Below are positions 11,936 to 21,292 of a stretch of 64,000 bases of DNA, one piece after another. Position 1 is the first letter of the stretch, and each line of letters starts with the position of its first letter. This DNA comes from Candidatus Peribacteria bacterium (GTDB lineage: Bacteria; Patescibacteriota; Gracilibacteria; Peribacterales; Peribacteraceae), in contig JAHFJM010000001.1 in assembly GCA_023245935.1 (NCBI GenBank), positions 248,001-312,000 on the forward strand, read 5' to 3'. The notes below the pieces were generated by a model. The model had not been told where the DNA came from. It worked only from the letters and a program-made list of their open reading frames with translations, and ran no database searches. The translations under genes and the position numbers were made by a program.

Positions 11936-12850
11936 TTACCGCTTTGCGACCGCAATTTCCCGTATTGTCTCGATGCACGTTTCCAGCCGGTCATTGATGA
12001 GGAGATGATCAAACAGATGCGCATGGTCGTCGAATGCCTGCAGATCTTTCACTGCGATCTTCAGCCGCTCCTCGATCTGTTCTTCGCTGTCGCGTCCGCG
12101 CGATCGCAGTCGATGGAGCAGCGCCGATAACTTGGTTCTTCGCGAACGACCGGGAGGGAGCAAGCCGCAGCTCAAGATCGCACGTCGCCCGAGTGCTTTC
12201 ACGAGCCCCGAGAGCAGATGAATTTCGGTGACCACGATCGGGAGTTTCTGCTTCGCCCAGATCGCTTCGATGTCTTTGCGTCGATACCCGTATCTGCGTG
12301 ATTCCGAGGCTGAAAGCATTTGGGTGTGGCTGATGATCTCACCGCTTTTCACCATCGATGCAAAACGATCCTCCGTGACGTGAACGTATGGTTCTGTATC
12401 GCCTTTCTTCACTGTACGCGTGGTGTAGATAGGAACCTGTTCCGCATAGGAGGTGAACAGTGAGAGAAGCGCACGTGCAATTGTCGTCTTGCCGACCCCA
12501 GAAGGACCCGAGACTGCGAGCACGTACGATGTGACGGTGAAGATCGGTTCGGTTTTCTTCGCGACTACTTCGTACTTCAGATCATTCACGAAGAGTCCGT
12601 TCTGCATCGTCCGTATTTTTCGCATGTGTGGAATGACCGTTGCTCCGATGGTCGGCGCTACCGAGTTTCGCGTGAGCTGTGCAAGGACTTTCTCTCCGTT
12701 CTGCAATGCAATCAACGCCACTGCGTACGGTTCCGTTCCGAATCCCGTGGGAGGATGCCGCACTGTCGTGAAGCTTACGATTGTCCCGGATTGCATCGCA
12801 GTTGCCTGCAATGCTTTGATGCGGCGGTGGAGGGAGGGGATTCGATCCAC
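11936..12850 (-). CDS. DUF35 OB-fold / guanylate-kinase-like P-loop fusion protein
   Basis: A 304-residue two-domain protein. Residues about 1-95 match the DUF35 OB-fold found with archaeal thiolase and HMG-CoA synthase (GTIVSFTTVRHPPTGFG, YAVALIALQNGEKVLAQLT, HMRKIR). The cysteine zinc ribbon usually in front is missing. Residues about 110-304 are a guanylate-kinase-like P-loop kinase: GPSGVGKTT, YTTRTVKKGD, RYGYRRKDIE and LRSRGRDSEEQIEERL. By eye the guanine-contacting positions of true guanylate kinases (Glu before W, Ser of YGS/T, Asp of DxD) are changed to Ser, Tyr and Thr/Glu. The GTG at 12850 lies 28 bases after the thiolase stop, across a CCCTAA-like tract. Upstream codons would run into thiolase. 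It may be a repurposed kinase or the genome's only GMP kinase. Confidence 0.8.
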   Translation of the reverse strand: MDRIPSLHRRIKALQATAMQSGTIVSFTTVRHPPTGFGTEPYAVALIALQNGEKVLAQLTRNSVAPTIGATVIPHMRKIRTMQNGLFVNDLKYEVVAKKTEPIFTVTSYVLAVSGPSGVGKTTIARALLSLFTSYAEQVPIYTTRTVKKGDTEPYVHVTEDRFASMVKSGEIISHTQMLSASESRRYGYRRKDIEAIWAKQKLPIVVTEIHLLSGLVKALGRRAILSCGLLPPGRSRRTKLSALLHRLRSRGRDSEEQIEERLKIAVKDLQAFDDHAHLFDHLLINDRLETCIETIREIAVAKR

Positions 12851-12878
12851 GATAGGGATGGGGATGAGAGGCTTAGGG

Positions 12879-14018
12879 TTAGATTGATTCGAGGAGATGC
12901 ACTGTACAGGTCGCGCCAACACCTCCCAAATTATGCGCCATCGCATGTGTTGCATTGACGACTTGGTTCGGTGCCTGTGACGTCAGTTGCTTCCAGCAAT
13001 CCAGGATCTGTTTCACCCCCGTTGCGCCGATCGGATGACCGCATGCTTTCAGTCCACCGCTCGGATTGACCGGCAGAGATCCGGAGGCATCGGTATCGCC
13101 GTCACGGAATAATCTGATCGCCTGCCCTTCCTCGGCGAACCCGAAATCTTCGAGATGGAGAAGGCTTGCGATCGAGAAGCAGTCATGCAGCTCGATGCAA
13201 TCGATGTCGTTTCTGTTCCAGTTCGCTTCTTTCAAGGCTGACTGAAATGCCGTGCGCGTTGAGACGAATGACGTGAGGCTTTCGCGATCGATGAGGCTTA
13301 AAGATTCGTTTGCCAGCTGCGATGCCGCAATGTGTACCGGAGATTCTTTCCGCATCGACAGAATGATCGCTGCCGCTCCATCGCTGATCGGGGAGCAGTC
13401 GAGGAGGCGAAGCGGATCGGCAACGAGCGGACTCTTCGAGATCGTTGCTGCAGGAATTTCTTTCCGGAACTGCGCGTAGGGATTTTTGACGGCGGCTCTA
13501 TGCGAACATGCAGAGACAAGGCTTAAGTCCTCACGCTTCAGCCCGTACCGGTGCATGTATGCGGTTGCCGTGAGTGCGAAGATCGAAGGAAACGTAAGGC
13601 CGGAAGGCAAATCTTTCTCGCTGTCTCCCGCATGCATCAGTGCACTGGTGACGATGTCTCCCGCGACGTCTGTCAGTTTCTCGGCACCGATGACGAGAAT
13701 CGTCTCGGCTTTGCCGCTCTCGAGGAATGCGCATGCCGTATGGACGGCAAGCCCGCCGGACGCGCACGCTGCCTCCACTCTGAGTGCTGGAGGATGATGT
13801 GGCAGGAGGCTGCTTGCGAATGTTCCGAGGTGTGCCTGCTCGGCGGTTTCCCCTCCAACCATGTTGCCGACAATGACCATGTCGATGTCGGTCGGGAGTA
13901 TTTTCGTATTCGTGATTGCACTGTCCACCGCTTCTCGGATCAGATCCGAAAGAGATTTCCCCCACAGCTCGCCAAAGCGAGTTTGACCACCTCCAAGGAC
14001 GTAGACGGTCTCGCGCAT
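12879..14018 (-). CDS. Archaeal-type acetoacetyl-CoA thiolase (acetyl-CoA C-acetyltransferase)
   Basis: Joins two acetyl-CoA to acetoacetyl-CoA, the first step of the mevalonate pathway. 379 residues. Seen: the nucleophilic Cys in VEAACASGGLAVHTAC, the His of LHDCFSIA, NPSGGLKACGHPIGATGV, and a C-terminal TCTVHLLES. The sequence resembles the thiolase that in archaea forms a channelling complex with a DUF35 protein and HMG-CoA synthase. The DUF35 domain is encoded directly downstream and HMG-CoA synthase 1 kb upstream. A -10 TACACT ends 11 bases before the ATG. Confidence 0.9.
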   Translation of the reverse strand: MRETVYVLGGGQTRFGELWGKSLSDLIREAVDSAITNTKILPTDIDMVIVGNMVGGETAEQAHLGTFASSLLPHHPPALRVEAACASGGLAVHTACAFLESGKAETILVIGAEKLTDVAGDIVTSALMHAGDSEKDLPSGLTFPSIFALTATAYMHRYGLKREDLSLVSACSHRAAVKNPYAQFRKEIPAATISKSPLVADPLRLLDCSPISDGAAAIILSMRKESPVHIAASQLANESLSLIDRESLTSFVSTRTAFQSALKEANWNRNDIDCIELHDCFSIASLLHLEDFGFAEEGQAIRLFRDGDTDASGSLPVNPSGGLKACGHPIGATGVKQILDCWKQLTSQAPNQVVNATHAMAHNLGGVGATCTVHLLESI

Positions 14019-14054: not shown

Positions 14055-14330
14055 TCATTCCTTTTTTGGCTTGGATGCTTCCTTATTTCGGTGATCGATA
14101 AGAAAGCTTGCACTCCCCATTGCTGCTCCTCCTCCCAGAGCCGTAAGAAGAAGCGCTCTTGTACTCTTCCTTGGAAGTTCCAATCCCTTTTCCATTTGAT
14201 TGTAAAATTGTTCGGTTAACTTTTGTGGTTTGTCGTGATTCCATACGAAGTCAGTCATTGCCAGTGCCGTTCCTCCACCCATTCCTAAAAGCAGCATTTC
14301 CCGACGATTCAATTGAGGTTGTTTTTCCAT
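14055..14330 (-). CDS. Small membrane protein with Tat-like twin-arginine N-terminus
   Basis: A 91-residue protein. The N-terminus LNRREMLLLGMGGGTALAM looks like a Tat signal (RR followed by a weakly hydrophobic Gly/Ala stretch). A second hydrophobic segment is ALLLTALGGGAAMGSASFLI, and the tail is basic (NKEASKPKKE). It is the third of three small genes of like design between hmgS and the thiolase. A -10 TATTCT ends 10 bases before the ATG. The function is unknown; position suggests, at most, co-inheritance with the mevalonate island. Confidence 0.6.
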   Translation of the reverse strand: MEKQPQLNRREMLLLGMGGGTALAMTDFVWNHDKPQKLTEQFYNQMEKGLELPRKSTRALLLTALGGGAAMGSASFLIDHRNKEASKPKKE

Positions 14331-14355
14331 GGGGAAGGGGAGAATAGAGAGGTAA

Positions 14356-14616
14356 TTACTCTTGTGGAGGAGACTGTTCCCTCAAATCCTTTAGTCTCAG
14401 CTCTGCCATTTTGGAGAGTGAAATGCCGCCTATGGCTCCAATGGTAGCACAGACAGCCATTGTCGACGGCAGTGTTTCTTGCTGCAGCACCTCTCGTATT
14501 GCCAGTCCTTGCCTGCATTGTTCATCGCCGCATTCCCCACGCCAGTCTCTGTAGATGGGTGCGAGGGCGCCGAGTGCGCAGCCTATGAGTGCATGGTTGA
14601 TTGTTGACCTATTCAT
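14356..14616 (-). CDS. Small two-helix membrane protein, hypothetical
   Basis: 86 residues from the ATG at 14616. An in-frame TTG 6 bases upstream is less likely. Two hydrophobic stretches (NHALIGCALGALAPI and MAVCATIGAIGGISL) flank a Cys-containing polar loop (ECGDEQC), and the C-terminal helix MAELRLKDLREQ is charged. The layout resembles the neighbouring small proteins at 14055 and 14637. No known family. Confidence 0.5.
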   Translation of the reverse strand: MNRSTINHALIGCALGALAPIYRDWRGECGDEQCRQGLAIREVLQQETLPSTMAVCATIGAIGGISLSKMAELRLKDLREQSPPQE

Positions 14617-14636
14617 AGCCAAAAAGAAGAATGCAA

Positions 14637-14936
14637 CTACGGTTCACCGACGGTTGTCGCTTCTTGCCGGTCAGTAGGTACTTCAGCTTTTCCTTCCTCA
14701 CGCTTACGGATTTCTGCGAGCGTATTGCCGCCGGCGATCATGGCACCTGCACCGAATAGCGAATACAGACTGATACGAACCATTGTCCCGAGTGGATTGG
14801 TCTTTCTTGGAGGTATTTCTCCTCTGGCTACAGCATCGTCATTGGCTGCGACGTCTAGCATGCCGCCCATTATCCCCAATGTGGCACCGTGCTTTGCCAA
14901 TTCCAATACTTCCCGTCGACTTAATTCTGCAGCCAT
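14637..14936 (-). CDS. Small membrane protein with Tat-like twin-arginine N-terminus
   Basis: 99 residues from the ATG at 14936. This start is chosen over the ATG at 14954 because a -10 TACAGT (14943-14948, minus strand) ends exactly 6 bases before it. N-terminal LSRREVLELAKHGATLGIMG resembles a Tat signal or a short membrane anchor. A second hydrophobic stretch is VRISLYSLFGAGAMIAGG, then charged LAEIRKREEGK. Same design as 14055-14330, suggesting diverged duplicates. Role unknown. Confidence 0.55.
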   Translation of the reverse strand: MAAELSRREVLELAKHGATLGIMGGMLDVAANDDAVARGEIPPRKTNPLGTMVRISLYSLFGAGAMIAGGNTLAEIRKREEGKAEVPTDRQEATTVGEP

Positions 14937-15000
14937 ACTAGGACTGTAATACATTTAACTTTCCATCGCAAGAAGCAGTCTTTCTGCTCTTTCTCCCTTA

Positions 15001-16026
15001 TTACAGGAGGGTTCTCGTCTCCTGCAGATACTCGGCATACGTGAGGTGTCGGAGGTCTTTTTCGATACTGCCGACCGGCAGCGGTGTGCCGTCTCTGAGC
15101 ATCGTGAAGAGGAATGCGTCCGAGCCTGCGCCCGATCCGTACGAGACGAGGAGAATTTTCTGATTCTTCTTCGCGTGCTCCAGGACGAATGTCAGCCCGA
15201 GAGGGGAACAGGCGGAGTACGTGTTGCCGATTCTCGGCACGATGAACCCGAGCTTCAGCTGCTCGTCGGTGAATCCGAGTTTCTTCGCAGCCTGCAGAGG
15301 AAATTTCGCATTCGGCATGTGCAGGACGACATGGTCGATGTCTGTCGGCGTGAGTATTGCTTCTTCCAAGATTTTTTTCGCCGTGAGTTCGATGTGGTGG
15401 AAGTACGCAGGCTCGCCGGTAAATCTCCCCGCGTGTGACGGATATTTTTCCTCCGCGTTGCGCCAGAAATCAGGAGTGTCGGTTGTGTACGACAGTGTTC
15501 TGTCGATTGAGCAGATGCCGGAGTTCGTTTTTGTCGGCAGTCCGATGACGAAAGCCGCACTGCCTGCGGCTGCCGAGTACTCGAGCGCGTCGCCGGGTTT
15601 GCTCTGTGCGGTGTCGGAGCCGATCGCGAGCCCAAGCTTGATCTGCTTACTTTCGGTCATCGTGCTTACGATCTGCATTGCCGTCGTTCCTGCTTTGCAG
15701 GCGAATTCAAGATCGGCTGCATGGCAGAAGTGATTGATGCCGAGAGCGCTGACGAGCATGCCGCTTGTGGGCTTCACGGCGTAGGGATGGCTTTCGGAGC
15801 CGACGAAGAGCGCACTGATTGATTGAGGATCGATGTTGCGAAGAGCAATCTTCGCCGCTTCCCACGCAATCGTGAACGTGTCTTCATCCGACGACGGTAC
15901 GGATTTTTCAAGAATGCCAAGCCCTTCCGCTTGTTCTGTTCCACGTTTCCAGTGAGCGGCGATCACGTTGGATTCGATGCGGTTTCTTGGAATGTAGCGA
16001 CCGAAGGAGAGAATGGCTGCGTGCAT
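15001..16026 (-). CDS. Hydroxymethylglutaryl-CoA synthase, archaeal type
   Basis: Condenses acetoacetyl-CoA and acetyl-CoA to HMG-CoA. 341 residues, the short archaeal form. Seen: AILSFGRYIPRNRI, GLGILEKSVPSSDEDT, VGSESHPYAVKPTSG, the nucleophilic Cys in AADLEFACKAGT, GSDTAQSKPGDALEYSAAAG, the catalytic His region VVLHMPNAKFP, and GNTYSACSPLGL near the C-terminus. The ATG at 16026 is fixed by homology and by an extended consensus -10 TGCTATAAT (16036-16044) ending 9 bases upstream. The preceding 26 in-frame codons are not part of the protein. Together with thiolase and DUF35 it forms an archaeal-like upper mevalonate module. Confidence 0.92.
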   Translation of the reverse strand: MHAAILSFGRYIPRNRIESNVIAAHWKRGTEQAEGLGILEKSVPSSDEDTFTIAWEAAKIALRNIDPQSISALFVGSESHPYAVKPTSGMLVSALGINHFCHAADLEFACKAGTTAMQIVSTMTESKQIKLGLAIGSDTAQSKPGDALEYSAAAGSAAFVIGLPTKTNSGICSIDRTLSYTTDTPDFWRNAEEKYPSHAGRFTGEPAYFHHIELTAKKILEEAILTPTDIDHVVLHMPNAKFPLQAAKKLGFTDEQLKLGFIVPRIGNTYSACSPLGLTFVLEHAKKNQKILLVSYGSGAGSDAFLFTMLRDGTPLPVGSIEKDLRHLTYAEYLQETRTLL

Positions 16027-16035
16027 GAGCGTTCG

Positions 16036-16044
16036 ATTATAGCA
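16036..16044 (-). promoter_or_regulatory. Extended consensus -10 TGCTATAAT of hmgS
   Basis: A perfect extended -10 on the minus strand, its last T 9 bases before the hmgS ATG at 16026. The implied transcript starts at or within a few bases of the start codon. Confidence 0.65.
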
Positions 16045-16056
16045 TTTCTTAAAGGT

Positions 16057-16135
16057 GCCCTCTCCGGAACGAAGTCGTAGAGAGGGCGAAAAAAGGAGTG
16101 TCACCCCCTTTCTATGTCCCTCTTTTTAAAGAGGG
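16057..16135. repeat. Two intergenic hairpins between hmgR and hmgS
   Basis: GCCCTCTC/GAGAGGGC stem at 16057-16087 and CCCTCTTT/AAAGAGGG stem at 16118-16135. They lie upstream of the hmgS promoter and after the hmgR stop. They may end hmgR transcription, or be members of the dispersed palindrome family. Confidence 0.55.
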
Positions 16136-16196: not shown

Positions 16197-17363
16197 CTAT
16201 CTCGCGAGCTTTTCGTGCGATTTGGCTAACTGATGCGCCGCCTGCGCTGCAAGGAGTGAGACTTCTCCTGCCAAAACTGCTGCAGTGATACTCTCTGCAA
16301 GCTGCTGCTTGATCTGCAGCCCGGATTTATTTTTCAGAAGCAGATCGAGACACTGTTTCTGTGTGGGGAGCGTCGTTCCACCACCGCGCACGCCGACGAG
16401 AATGGCAGGAACACGGACGGAGATCTTGAGTCCGCTTCCGGTTTCCTCCACGGTTGTATCAGTGAGCGATCCTTCGACGGTGTGTGCGATGTCTTGCCCC
16501 GCTCCGAGGTAGAGCGCTGCAATGATGTTCGCGGCGTGAAGATTGCTGCCGAGTGCCCCCGCAAGCGTCGAACCGTGCGTGAGCTTCGCATCAGCAACCT
16601 GCTTCATCGCCTCCGGTGTCGTTTTCAGAATGTCTGCGACTGTTTCTTTGCTCAGCATCACGCTCGCATGCACCTCGAATCCGCGACCGAGATCGTGCGT
16701 GCGTTTGCTCGGTTTCTTGTCGCTGTCGACGTTTCCTGCAACGGTGATGCAACGAATACCTTCGACGTTGGTAGTTGCCCAATCTGCAATCGCTTGCGCC
16801 GCAATCGTCACCATATTCATACCCATCGCTTCGTCCGTATCGCAGGCAATCGTGAGGAACACGTACTGTTTCTGCAGATCGATCGTGTACGACAGCACGG
16901 TGAGGTGATTGCTCGTTGCCTGTGCGACTGCTTTCCATGCTGCTTCGTTCTTTCGTATCGCATCGACAAGCTCCTGCACTTTCGTGGATGAACTCGCGCG
17001 AAATGCAATCGACCTCGTGATGCCGTGATGGATTGTCTTTGTGATCGTCACCCCTGCAGCCGACACTGCTTTGCATCCTCTGTTCACACTCGCAACGAGT
17101 GCGCCTTCGGTGGTTGCCAGTGGCAGATGCAATTCGGTACTGTGATTATTCGAGAACGTCAGCGTGAGTGGTCCCGCGTACCCCACCGGAACCGACACTG
17201 TCCCGAACATCTGCTCGCAGTTTTTCTTCTCGCTCTCACCGATTGTGTGTTCTCTCGGTTCGAGATGCTTGAGGTCGACTCCGAGTTCGCGTTCGATCAG
17301 CGTTCGGCGCTGGTTGATGCGCTGCAGCGAGCTGAGTTGGTCGGGGAGGTTTCTCAAATCCAT
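16197..17363 (-). CDS. 3-hydroxy-3-methylglutaryl-CoA reductase, class I
   Basis: Reduces HMG-CoA to mevalonate with NAD(P)H. 388 residues from the ATG at 17363. Seen: VPVGYAGPLTL, the catalytic Glu in TEGALVASVNRGCKA, DTDEAMGMNMV, the Lys region NVDSDKKPSKRTHDLGRG, HTVEGSLTDTTVEETG, and the C-terminal catalytic His in LAKSHEKLAR, as in class I enzymes. A -10 TATTCT ends 6 bases before the ATG. The longer in-frame N-terminus comes from a repeat element (17377-17478) and is rejected. No N-terminal membrane domain, as in prokaryotic enzymes. Confidence 0.92.
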   Translation of the reverse strand: MDLRNLPDQLSSLQRINQRRTLIERELGVDLKHLEPREHTIGESEKKNCEQMFGTVSVPVGYAGPLTLTFSNNHSTELHLPLATTEGALVASVNRGCKAVSAAGVTITKTIHHGITRSIAFRASSSTKVQELVDAIRKNEAAWKAVAQATSNHLTVLSYTIDLQKQYVFLTIACDTDEAMGMNMVTIAAQAIADWATTNVEGIRCITVAGNVDSDKKPSKRTHDLGRGFEVHASVMLSKETVADILKTTPEAMKQVADAKLTHGSTLAGALGSNLHAANIIAALYLGAGQDIAHTVEGSLTDTTVEETGSGLKISVRVPAILVGVRGGGTTLPTQKQCLDLLLKNKSGLQIKQQLAESITAAVLAGEVSLLAAQAAHQLAKSHEKLAR

Positions 17364-17376
17364 GAGAGCAGAATAT

Positions 17377-17478
17377 GTTCTTTCTTTGTTCGTGCAAAGA
17401 AAGAACCAAAGAAAGCACGGCGCGCCGATGCCCACCAGCTCACCCCCACCTGCGGCGCGCGCCACCCCTTGGATGCTT
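17377..17478. repeat. Dispersed structured repeat A, copy 1
   Basis: A 100-base element shared with 30269-30370. It has a 5' hairpin (GTTCTTTCTTTG/CAAAGAAAGAAC, 12 bp), then a GC-rich hairpin (GGCGCGC.../GCGCGCC) with near-identical text ACCCCCACCTG and CGCGCGCCACCCCTT. It lies between the mvd stop and the hmgR -10 box. The first hairpin keeps pairing in both copies despite different bases. Confidence 0.75.
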
Positions 17479-17480
17479 AT

Positions 17481-18485
17481 TTACTTCTCTACGAGGTGGG
17501 ATGACTTTCCTGTTTTAGCTTTGAACATAATGCAATCTTTTTGCCTTCCCGCGAATGCTTCCACTGCTTCTCTACTGTCTTCTGTACAGATCAGATGCAC
17601 GGTCGGACCGGCATCCATCGTGAAGAGCACCTGTAATTTTTCGCGATCCCTCAGCGTTTTAATATCGTCGATGATTCTGTGTGTTGCATCCGAGAGATAG
17701 CGAAGCGGCGGATTTTGTGTCTCCATCACGTGGTGCATGTCGAGCGAATCTTCCTCCGAAACTGTTTGGAGTTTTTCAAAGTCTTTTCTTTGGATCGCAT
17801 CGATGCATTCACGCATGCGTCTCGGAATTTGCCGAATGCGCTCGGCAAACAGAGGGCTTGTGGTTGCCTTTGCATGCCCTTCTGTCGATCCAACTTTCTT
17901 CTCTTCCCTGCTCGGGACGAGGATGATGTCATGCAGCATCCAGTGCTCTTCGCTTGCAATCTGTCTTCCGTAGGCAGAGCCGATTCCTTCACCGTGGTTC
18001 TCCAGCGCAACGTATCCTCCGAAGGAATTTCGCGCTCCCGATCCGGATCCCAGTCTTCCGATGATGCTCACCTCTTCGCGTGTCAGTGCTTTGCCCCGAA
18101 CGAGAGCCGCATACGCCTCCGCAAGGCAGCTGAAGACCGCAGCAGACGATGCGATGCCGATCGATGGAGGGATACCCGAATGAATGGTGATCGAAATTTC
18201 TTCGGGAAGTTCCTGCGTTCGTCCGATGCTCCGCAAAAATTTTTTCGTCAGTGTCCAGTGTTTCTTCAGCCGATCGACCGATGCTTCCGTCTGAAGTTTT
18301 TCGATGCCGTCGTGATCGTACGAACGAATAGACAATACTTCAGAAGAGTCGACTGTCGCACTGACCGTCGGAAAATCCAGCACCATCGACAATGAGTCCG
18401 CTGCAGGCAGACGAAGCTCGTCATCGCGGTTTCCCCAATATTTGATGAGAGCGATGTTGGGTGATGATTGTGCAATAATGCTCAT
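17481..18485 (-). CDS. Diphosphomevalonate (or phosphomevalonate) decarboxylase
   Basis: GHMP-fold decarboxylase of 334 residues giving isopentenyl (di)phosphate. Seen: SSPNIALIKYWGNRDDELRL, the ATP-binding segment IPPSIGIASSAAVFSCLAEAYA, LGSGSGARNSFGGYVAL with the conserved catalytic Arg, and the catalytic Asp in FTMDAGPTVHLIC. The KYWG motif favours the classical diphosphomevalonate enzyme. Because no phosphomevalonate kinase is seen here, a phosphomevalonate-decarboxylase activity remains possible. It starts 24 bases after the mevalonate kinase stop. A candidate -10 TACTCT lies 11 bases before the ATG, but co-transcription is equally likely. Confidence 0.88.
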   Translation of the reverse strand: MSIIAQSSPNIALIKYWGNRDDELRLPAADSLSMVLDFPTVSATVDSSEVLSIRSYDHDGIEKLQTEASVDRLKKHWTLTKKFLRSIGRTQELPEEISITIHSGIPPSIGIASSAAVFSCLAEAYAALVRGKALTREEVSIIGRLGSGSGARNSFGGYVALENHGEGIGSAYGRQIASEEHWMLHDIILVPSREEKKVGSTEGHAKATTSPLFAERIRQIPRRMRECIDAIQRKDFEKLQTVSEEDSLDMHHVMETQNPPLRYLSDATHRIIDDIKTLRDREKLQVLFTMDAGPTVHLICTEDSREAVEAFAGRQKDCIMFKAKTGKSSHLVEK

Positions 18486-18509: not shown

Positions 18510-19313
18510 TCATGCAGGCAGCACCAGCACCATCCCTCCCCCTCCCGTTCGCCCTCCCGCGCCAAGCACTTTCGCACTGCCGCCACGATGTTCAATATCC
18601 GCAATCACTCGCTGCGTTTCTTTCAGCACAACGCCGAGTGTGATCTGCGCTCGGTGGTGATCACGCATCACCGTCTTGATCGATTCGTCTGCGAGAATTC
18701 TCTCCGTACAGGCACCGATTATTTCGATTGCGTTTCGGGTTTCCGGTTCACCCGCTTCATATCGTGCTCGTACCCAAGCGACAAGTTCGGGTGTTGCTTC
18801 GTTCGGCTTTCCGGTATCGATGAGCCGCATGTTCTGCAGAAGATTTTTTGGCAGATCGATCACGGTTGGCGTCGTATCTTTCGCAAACAGGATCGGCTTT
18901 TCCTCCCAAATCACTGCGAAGTCGATGCCGCTGTGTCCGGGGTTCAGTTCATCTTCCAGCTCACGTGCGATACTTTCTGAATCAGGTCCGACAATGCAGC
19001 GGCACATTGCAATGATCAGTGCGGTCGACGAGCCCATGCCTTTGCCGAGCGGCAATTTGTTTTCGATTGTCAGTGTGCCGGAAATATTTTTCGTTCTTTC
19101 GACGATCTTCTGTGCGATTTTTTTCGCATAGTCTTTCCAAGTCACATCAATATTTTTTTCAGCCCAGACAATCGTCATGCCATCATTCTTTTGGCTTTCC
19201 TCCAACATTACTTTTACTCTCAATTCCGACGGTATCGCTATACCACTCTTGCCAAACAGCACGGCATACTCGCCACTCAGAATGATCTTGCCGGAGGCGG
19301 ATGCGGAACGCAT
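18510..19313 (-). CDS. Mevalonate kinase (GHMP family)
   Basis: Phosphorylates mevalonate. 267 residues, somewhat shorter than usual. Seen: ASGKIILSGEYAVLFGKSGIA at the N-terminus, the GHMP ATP loop PLGKGMGSSTALI, NPGHSGIDFAVIW carrying the catalytic Asp, and the C-terminal glycine motif LGAGGRTGGGGMV. A -10 TAGAAT ends 9 bases before the ATG at 19313. Upstream of the decarboxylase in the same direction. A second kinase of this family for phosphomevalonate is absent from the window. Confidence 0.88.
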   Translation of the reverse strand: MRSASASGKIILSGEYAVLFGKSGIAIPSELRVKVMLEESQKNDGMTIVWAEKNIDVTWKDYAKKIAQKIVERTKNISGTLTIENKLPLGKGMGSSTALIIAMCRCIVGPDSESIARELEDELNPGHSGIDFAVIWEEKPILFAKDTTPTVIDLPKNLLQNMRLIDTGKPNEATPELVAWVRARYEAGEPETRNAIEIIGACTERILADESIKTVMRDHHRAQITLGVVLKETQRVIADIEHRGGSAKVLGAGGRTGGGGMVLVLPA

Positions 19314-19336: not shown

Positions 19337-19972
19337 TTACGATTTCGGCAGATGAAGCGTAATACCCAGAAGATTCCCGACGCGGAGAGTCGTTGCGATC
19401 ATGTCTTGCTTAATTTGGAGGAGGGTCTCGGCTTCCGGGTCAGTGACACTGACAAACTCGGATGCACTCCGTTTTGCCAATCCCCGCTTCGAGAAAATTT
19501 CCCGTACACGTTGCACGATAATGCTCTTCACGATGTGGATGATGATATTGACACGATCGATTTCGTTGAGACTCTGCATCATCATGACTCGTTGTGTGAT
19601 TTCCCTCCGAATGGAGTGCAGATTTTCTGCAGTGAATTCAATTTCCTCACCCATTTTTAGCACGATCCCTCTGAAAATATTCAGTGCAATATTCTCAATA
19701 GCATTGAGTGGAGGGGATTTTGTTCCTGCGGCATCCAAAATTTGGACGAAGTTTCTTTCCATAAATCGATCAGGGCTGGTCTGTTCAAGGACAGTTGCTC
19801 CTTTTTGCAAAATTTCTCTCTCCTGCCTTGATGCAACGATTGACAATGAATCTGTTCGACCTTGTTTACTGAAATAGAGTCCGATTGATAGGCGCTTCAT
19901 GGCGCACGTAAGACTTGTTGGTGCTGGTTCCTGTAGTGCATCTGTTGCCAGAGATTCCACATCAAGCTGCAT
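19337..19972 (-). CDS. Hypothetical protein in the mevalonate island
   Basis: A 211-residue, mainly helical soluble protein, not recognised. Features: a lysine/glutamate-rich middle (SRQEREILQKGATVLEQTSP), a long helix with VMMMQSLNEIDRVNIIIHIVKSIIV, and a C-terminal DPEAETLLQIKQDMIATTL. A consensus -10 TATAAT ends exactly 6 bases before the ATG, so it has its own leaderless promoter. It is more A+T-rich than its neighbours by eye, which may mean later arrival. It sits between uppS and mvk on the same strand. Confidence 0.6.
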   Translation of the reverse strand: MQLDVESLATDALQEPAPTSLTCAMKRLSIGLYFSKQGRTDSLSIVASRQEREILQKGATVLEQTSPDRFMERNFVQILDAAGTKSPPLNAIENIALNIFRGIVLKMGEEIEFTAENLHSIRREITQRVMMMQSLNEIDRVNIIIHIVKSIIVQRVREIFSKRGLAKRSASEFVSVTDPEAETLLQIKQDMIATTLRVGNLLGITLHLPKS

Positions 19973-20024: not shown

Positions 20025-20720
20025 CTACCCTCCAAACCTCCTCTTCCTCCTCTCATACTCCTTCACCGCTTCATCCAAGTCTCCAATTCCTATGTCCGGG
20101 AAGTACTTCGGGCTGAAGATCCACTCGCTGTACGCACTCTGCCACAGGAAGAAATTACTCGTACGCTGTTCGCCGGAAGACCGGAAAATAAGATCAATTT
20201 CGGGGAGTTCGGGGTGATCGAGATGCTCTGCGATATTTTTTTCCGAGATTGGCGCCGACGATGTTCCTTGTGTTTGCAGTAATTTCCCCATCGCACGTAC
20301 CACTTCGTCTTTCCCGCCGTAATCCACCGCAAGGTGCAGTGTGAATTCTGTTTCGTTCTTCGTTTCCTCCTCTGTTTCCTCAATCATTTTTTTCAGTGAT
20401 GCGGGAATGCGATCGCGGCGACCTGAATGCACGAAGCGCGTTTTGTTTTCCTTCAGTCCATACTTCTCTTTTCGGAGATAGTCTTCGAGCATCGTCATGA
20501 GCATCGAGATTTCTTTCTCGTCACGTTTCCAGTTCTCGGTCGAGAAACACCAGACGGTTAGAATGCCGATGCGCGGATCGTTCCTGCACCAGTCCGTGAG
20601 TGTGCGGAAGTTCTCGATCGCTTTCTCATGCCCTTTCCAGACCGCTTCCAACTTATGTTCCCGTGCCCAGCGGCGGTTGCCGTCGGGGATGATCGCAAGG
20701 TGAAGTAACTCTTTTTTCAT
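20025..20720 (-). CDS. uppS: Isoprenyl transferase (undecaprenyl diphosphate synthase, cis-type)
   Basis: Extends farnesyl diphosphate with isopentenyl diphosphate in cis to make the C55 lipid carrier. 231 residues. Seen: HLAIIPDGNRRWAREHK with the catalytic Asp, GHEKAIENFRTLTDWC, VWCFSTENWKRDEKEI, FVHSGRRDRIPASL, LAVDYGGKDEV, and the C-terminal IDLIFRSSGEQRTSNFFLWQ with the substrate-binding Arg residues. The start overlaps the idi stop as ATGA. The carrier lipid it makes is what the many glycosyltransferases in this window would use. A farnesyl diphosphate synthase is not in the window. Confidence 0.93.
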   Translation of the reverse strand: MKKELLHLAIIPDGNRRWAREHKLEAVWKGHEKAIENFRTLTDWCRNDPRIGILTVWCFSTENWKRDEKEISMLMTMLEDYLRKEKYGLKENKTRFVHSGRRDRIPASLKKMIEETEEETKNETEFTLHLAVDYGGKDEVVRAMGKLLQTQGTSSAPISEKNIAEHLDHPELPEIDLIFRSSGEQRTSNFFLWQSAYSEWIFSPKYFPDIGIGDLDEAVKEYERRKRRFGG

Positions 20721-21247
20721 TGGGTGAGGCAGAAAGTCGCTTTCGGAAGTCCGAGATGAAACCATGGAGCATAGAGATCTTTCTTTGCTTCCATCTCCGA
20801 TTGCAGTGACCGAAGATCGATCCACTTCCACTCTGCGACTTCATCGGGATTCGGCTGCACCGCTGTATCTTCCGTCGCGGTTCCGGTGAGAATCGTATCG
20901 TACTCATGTTCAAGCCCCTGTCTACTCGGGTCGAGCGCACGGTAGACAAACGATGGTCCTTCCCGAAGGGCAACGGTGAAACCAAGCTCCTCTCGTAATC
21001 TTCTCTGCCCTGCTTCACTCGCGGTCTCGCCTCGCATCGGATGGCTGCAGCACGTGTTCGCCCAAATCATCGGCCAGAGCATTTTTTTCGCGGATCGGCG
21101 CTGGATCAACGTCTTTGTGTGATCCGGATTGAAAACGTACACCGAAAACGCTCTGTGGAGCGCCCCTGCTCCCGTGTGAGCGGAAAGCAGATCGACATCC
21201 CCAAGATCCTTGCCGGTTTCATCGCAATGGATGACGGTGCGTGTCAT
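20717..21247 (-). CDS. idi: Isopentenyl-diphosphate delta-isomerase, type I (Nudix)
   Basis: Interconverts IPP and DMAPP. 176 residues. Seen: HRAFSVYVFNPD, the catalytic Cys in WANTCCSHP, the Nudix-like stretch ETASEAGQRRLREELGF, the catalytic Glu in EYDTILTG, EVAEWKWID and YAPWF. The ATG at 21247 is chosen over the TTG 6 bases upstream: a -10 TACACT ends exactly 6 bases before it. Head of an idi-uppS unit (ATGA overlap). Type I isomerase with an archaeal-like upper pathway makes the island mosaic. Confidence 0.92.
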   Translation of the reverse strand: MTRTVIHCDETGKDLGDVDLLSAHTGAGALHRAFSVYVFNPDHTKTLIQRRSAKKMLWPMIWANTCCSHPMRGETASEAGQRRLREELGFTVALREGPSFVYRALDPSRQGLEHEYDTILTGTATEDTAVQPNPDEVAEWKWIDLRSLQSEMEAKKDLYAPWFHLGLPKATFCLTQ

Positions 21248-21292
21248 ACGCAAAGTGTATACCTGGTTTACACCTCCGAATAAGGAAGAAGG

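Follow-up and report, generated by a model that had tools for sequence, protein, structure and literature searches.

The mevalonate operon of a Candidatus Peribacteria bacterium closes with a gene that fuses a DUF35-type OB fold to a guanylate-kinase-like (GK-like) domain, and this fusion is probably the missing terminal kinase of the pathway. It lies at 11936..12850 on the reverse strand of the 64,000-nucleotide stretch of DNA analysed here (the window). As to its substrate, the sequences lean towards isopentenyl phosphate (IP): the protein would be a kinase of guanylate kinase fold that lacks GMP specificity and converts IP to isopentenyl diphosphate (IPP).

In the source genome (1.22 Mb, 99% complete) the operon runs along a single strand, the reverse strand of the window. 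It opens with a type I isopentenyl-diphosphate isomerase (IDI, 20717..21253; TIGR02150 and PRK03759 above cut-off) and an undecaprenyl diphosphate synthase (UppS, 20025..20831; TIGR00055, 202 bits), followed, after a 211-aa ORF, by a short, divergent mevalonate kinase (MVK, 18510..19313), which scored 88 bits against TIGR00549, under the cut-off of 163, and whose PDB matches at E<0.01 were all mevalonate kinases. A decarboxylase of the MDD/MPD family (17481..18485), HMG-CoA reductase (HMGR, 16197..17465; PF00368, E=5e-91) and an archaeal-type HMG-CoA synthase (HMGS, 15001..16104; TIGR00748, 377 bits, above cut-off) come next, and then, behind three short ORFs, an archaeal-type thiolase of the PRK06064 family (12879..14018; NF004720, 427 bits, above cut-off). 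The fusion is the final gene and begins 28 bases past the stop codon of the thiolase, which adjoins it directly upstream as had been noted earlier. The three short ORFs between HMGS and thiolase (91, 88 and 105 aa; 14055-14954, reverse strand) have apparent hydrophobic segments. The 211-aa ORF between UppS and MVK (19337-19972, reverse strand) has no significant family match and, among the operons compared, is present in the window only.

The fusion protein has 304 residues. Its stop codon ends at 11936, and translation probably begins with the GTG at 12850, because homologues start there and Arg10 is kept in 33/34 of them. Pfam assigned the N-terminal part to OB_ChsH2_C (PF01796, DUF35 OB fold; E=5e-10) and the C-terminal part to Guanylate_kin (PF00625; E=4.4e-15), both above the gathering score. 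In the AlphaFold model (pLDDT 81, pTM 0.60), a beta-rich domain precedes a P-loop domain, for which the best PDB match was yeast guanylate kinase (1gky, TM 0.89 by target length). Together with the profile comparison against the PDB, these assignments place the DUF35/ChsH2 OB fold at residues ~18-97 (12560..12799, reverse strand) and the GK-like domain at ~108-304 (11939..12529, reverse strand). The alignment between a profile built from 33 fusion homologues and the archaeal DUF35 subunit in 6esq was confined to residues 49-121 of the latter, the OB half (E=1.1e-6). The zinc-ribbon half is absent from the N terminus, and a Cys of any kind occurs within the first 22 residues in 1/33 homologues. 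The fusion thus has the C-terminal OB fold of DUF35/ChsH2 scaffolds and lacks their N-terminal Cys4 zinc ribbon. In the archaeal 6esq complex, thiolase and HMG-CoA synthase are joined through the DUF35 domain (PMC12329534). The fusion shares with that subunit the OB fold and a gene position beside thiolase and an archaeal-type HMGS, but differs from it in the missing zinc ribbon and in carrying a C-terminal kinase. Both domains, the lost zinc ribbon and the bridging role in archaea had been claimed in the earlier note, and each is borne out here.

Exactly one kinase step is missing from the pathway of this operon, and no other recognisable candidate kinase was found for it. The source genome holds only two GHMP-fold genes, the MVK and the decarboxylase, and searches of it with GHMP-fold and phosphomevalonate kinase (PMK) models returned no GHMP-type PMK, in agreement with the earlier reading of the operon. 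Animal-type PMK (PF04275) gave no match above noise in 57 genomes of the family, the source genome included. The sole amino-acid kinase of the source genome is PyrH, and the isopentenyl phosphate kinase (IPK) model NF040647 was above its cut-off in 0/57 family genomes, compared with three control genomes above it. A canonical IPK in the family was therefore rejected; the stronger sub-threshold matches that were tested proved to be ProB (glutamate 5-kinase), and that of the source genome was PyrH. In one relative (G206; L108 ~12192-12935, read as L150), HMGR and the decarboxylase are separated by a ProB gene. The pathway gap was visible already in a 2016 study of five Peribacteria genomes, which listed the enzymes leading to mevalonate-5P and those from mevalonate-5PP onwards, with none for the step between, and called the pathway "near-complete" (PMC4736985).

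The residues of the GK-like domain were compared between 33 fusions and 80 control guanylate kinases (GMKs), using yeast GMK numbering. The likeness to Gmk (TIGR03263/PF00625) covers the fold, the P-loop GPSGVGKTT, the LID arginines and the Arg, Lys and Tyr residues that bind the GMP phosphate. The fusions retain, almost throughout, the P-loop Lys, the LID arginines and the residues that bind phosphate (Arg38 in 29/33, Arg41 as Lys or Arg in 32/33, Tyr50 in 29/33 and Tyr78 in 30/33; R145, K148, Y155 and Y187 of the fusion). In contrast, Ser34, Glu69 and Ser80, which we take to be the guanine contacts in the GMP complex of GMK, were lost in 33/33 fusions and retained in 80/80 control GMKs (as Ser/Thr, Glu and Thr/Ser). 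They are replaced by Ile/Met, Ala/Ser/Thr and Tyr, respectively (I141, S/A174 and Y189 in the fusion). The fusions further differ from Gmk in their N-terminal OB fold and in new invariant residues, Pro140, Trp198 and Arg238, the last within a LID insert. The earlier note had reported a kept P-loop, a kept RGRDSEE motif and a changed guanine pocket. Its Glu and Ser replacements stand and that of Ser34 is added to them; its Asp change falls in a stretch (Asp98/Asp100) where the alignment is ambiguous and where an acidic residue, Glu209, is retained. The Ile/Ala/Tyr replacements predict a more hydrophobic pocket, and the overall pattern is as should be expected of a kinase whose substrate is phosphorylated and contains no guanine. 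With Trp included, the pocket residues would be compatible with a prenyl chain. Two further conserved residues near the pocket, Arg185 and Arg190, could interact with a carboxylate group, as would fit phosphomevalonate. Because these arginines leave room for a carboxylate, the kinase sequence by itself fits an IPK and a PMK alike.

In a phylogenetic tree the fusion GK domains formed one clade (support 100/100) on a stem of 2.58 changes per column. This single, supported, long-stemmed clade marks the domain as an old, specialised family rather than a spare gmk, and it ruled out a recent gmk duplicate. Against the NCBIfam guanyl_kin model TIGR03263 the fusion scored 87 bits, far under the equivalog cut-off of 160, and it is therefore classed as GK-like and not as a standard GMK; the separate gmk of the same genome scored 138 bits, likewise under this strict cut-off. 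That second gene, anticipated in the earlier note and located at G000:C4:108110-108670, retains the guanine-contact residues.

The type of decarboxylase bears on the substrate of the missing kinase. Diphosphomevalonate decarboxylases (MDDs) have Lys21 and Ile27 (S. epidermidis numbering), whereas mevalonate-phosphate decarboxylases (MPDs) have a residue other than Lys at 21 and, in most cases, Arg at 27 (Dellas et al. 2013, PMC3857490, Table 4). The window decarboxylase, which carries a GSTEGH motif, has Asn21 and Arg27. The same pair is present in 28/28 orthologues and in 6n0x, the PMD of Anaerolinea thermophila; in the MDDs of mouse and Arabidopsis these positions are occupied by Lys and Ile. 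The best PDB match was 6n0x (161 bits, versus 124 for true MDDs), which is AthPMD with bound MVA5P (PMC9254496). The same study reports that mutagenesis converted PMD to DMD specificity, and the Asn to Lys and His to Met differences by which 6n0z departs from the otherwise identical 6n0x in our alignment are, we infer, the engineered changes. With a non-Lys residue at 21, Arg27 and a known PMD as its nearest relative, the operon decarboxylase is a probable mevalonate-5-phosphate decarboxylase. It scored 107 bits against NF040704, the model for haloarchaeal-type MvaD, far under the cut-off of 475. In one relative (G093, L100) the decarboxylase has Lys at 21 and the fusion is still present. The MPD signature implies that the missing kinase would act on isopentenyl phosphate, as an IPK and not a PMK, and it is this decarboxylase type that makes us prefer the IPK reading.

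That the fusion is instead the missing PMK (MVAP to MVAPP), with a true diphosphomevalonate decarboxylase of unusual residues beside it, is unlikely. It would fit the retained phosphate-binding residues and the conserved R185 and R190, and the decarboxylase does exceed the cut-off of the older TIGR01240 MDD model. It would also find a parallel in the animal-type PMK, a P-loop NMP-kinase-like enzyme that supplies an isoprenoid precursor with its second phosphate, as the fusion might, though PF04275 is a different family. The same pathway gap, with two GHMP genes and the step absent from the 2016 list (PMC4736985), would be filled equally. Against it stand the Asn and Arg that the decarboxylase has in place of the Lys and Ile of MDDs, its nearest match, which is an MVAP decarboxylase characterised by structure, and the pairing of an IPK-like kinase with a similar decarboxylase in relatives of the same class. 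In two such relatives outside the family, with HMGR and without the fusion (G047 and G138), a divergent amino-acid kinase that matches only the IPK model adjoins the decarboxylase. These IPK-like genes scored 60 bits in G047 and 70 bits in G138 (cut-off 120) and have the His motifs GSFGH and GSWGH, and the neighbouring decarboxylases are non-Lys at 21. The G138 locus (L141 8609-11920) has the order IDI-decarboxylase-IPK-HMGR; the G047 locus is L235 1468-3454. The simplest reading is that the class uses the MVAP to IP to IPP route and that the IPK has been replaced in Peribacteraceae. In the earlier note the fusion had been put forward as a phosphomevalonate kinase; the gap and the candidate hold, and phosphomevalonate as the substrate is probably wrong, given the MPD-type decarboxylase.

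On the preferred IPK reading, acetyl-CoA would be converted to mevalonate by thiolase, HMGS and HMGR, and mevalonate to mevalonate-5-P by the MVK; the MPD-type decarboxylase would yield isopentenyl-P, which the fusion would phosphorylate to IPP for use by IDI and UppS in making polyprenyl-PP. The activity and substrate given to the fusion in this scheme derive from the pathway gap and the decarboxylase type. The alternative mevalonate pathway of Haloarchaea and Chloroflexi (MPD plus IPK; PMC3857490) likewise has an MPD-type decarboxylase and no PMK, but Peribacteraceae have no recognisable IPK, and its role would fall to the non-homologous GK-fold fusion. With IPK of the amino-acid-kinase family (NF040647) the fusion would share the reaction and the position in a pathway with an MPD-type decarboxylase. 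The folds are unrelated: the fusion has the GK fold, and the amino-acid-kinase fold with its catalytic His is absent.

A search of relatives, as the earlier note had suggested, found the fusion closing the operon in ~35 Peribacteraceae genomes. Across the family the named genes share the order IDI-UPPS-MVK-MDD-HMGR-HMGS-THL-fusion, and in 33/33 loci holding both, the fusion directly follows the thiolase on the same strand. Linkage to the pathway was assessed in an even sample of 192 genomes of the class. HMGR was present in 26/192, 24 of them in the window's family, and the full fusion was found in all 24 (24/24); since the genomes share the gene by descent, the co-occurrence counts do not represent independent events. 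Seven family genomes had no HMGR, and five of them also lacked the fusion. In one exception, G168, the fusion accompanies HMGS and thiolase close to the end of a contig (L121), off which the operon runs; in its genus-mate G184, HMGR lies >2 kb further on. The other, G017 (L122 9498-10256, reverse strand), has a diverged GK-only relative with no OB fold in a ribosomal-protein/secY region; it has lost the LID-insert arginine 238, and neither HMGR nor GHMP kinases were detected in that genome.

Outside Peribacteraceae, a profile search of 380 genomes across the phylum found no fusion at E<=1e-25. Among the matches listed in a wider contig scan were two Peribacteria and one contig labelled Kaiserbacteria, the rest being weak and GMK-like. 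The Candidatus Kaiserbacteria-labelled contig (JACRFK010000003.1; L157 2541-10400) carries a mevalonate operon including the fusion, which may reflect horizontal transfer or a misassigned genome. Besides the short MVK and the fusion, one sub-lineage (G180, G132, G150, G201 and G164) has another MVK, of the standard kind, and a decarboxylase of a second type, so its kinase inventory is not minimal. The extra GHMP genes were rejected as PMKs, since one kind classes as a standard MVK (216 bits against TIGR00549) and the other as a decarboxylase. The second MVK and second decarboxylase (Arg21/Arg27) occur in L096, L098, L102, L103, L114, L116, L117 and L157, in most cases within the operon as a divergent pair.

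The GK-only relative of G017, a genome without the pathway, and the fusion to a complex-bridging OB fold would both suit a GK domain that acts on another phosphorylated metabolite, or one that serves as a regulatory nucleotide-sensing or scaffolding domain tuning the thiolase/HMGS complex. The GK-like domains of animal MAGUKs are non-catalytic and offer a precedent. We nevertheless consider such a role quite improbable: unlike a dead domain, this one keeps its P-loop Lys, its LID arginines and its phosphate-binding residues almost throughout, and the pathway would be left without a terminal kinase. A second GMP kinase for nucleotide supply, joined by chance, would account for the GK fold and the above-threshold Guanylate_kin match but is very improbable in view of the tight linkage to the mevalonate operon, the 33/33 fusions without guanine contacts and the separate gmk that has them.

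If the fusion is the terminal kinase, its OB fold may be the remnant of a DUF35 subunit that docks the kinase on the thiolase/HMG-CoA-synthase complex, a role suggested by analogy and by gene adjacency. Taken as a whole, we tentatively propose, at somewhat short of even confidence, a new class of IPK derived from the guanylate kinase fold and tethered through a DUF35-derived OB fold, by which Peribacteraceae with an MPD/IPK-type alternative pathway would attach the last mevalonate kinase to the first enzymes.

The fusion is a concrete candidate for a pathway gap left since the first complete Peribacteria genomes. A eukaryote-type mevalonate route has been attributed to related bacteria (PMC9166423; PMC11052028). 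Since the 'diphosphomevalonate decarboxylase' of Peribacteria carries Asn21/Arg27, annotations of that route in Peribacteria may be wrong (decarboxylase orthologues L084-L123), and our results suggest that Peribacteraceae instead use the phosphomevalonate-decarboxylase/IPK route. If this is true, evolution would have arrived at one more way of placing the second phosphate on an isoprenoid precursor, besides the amino-acid-kinase IPK and the GHMP and animal PMKs, and the case would be useful to enzyme engineers and in reconstructions of mevalonate pathway evolution.
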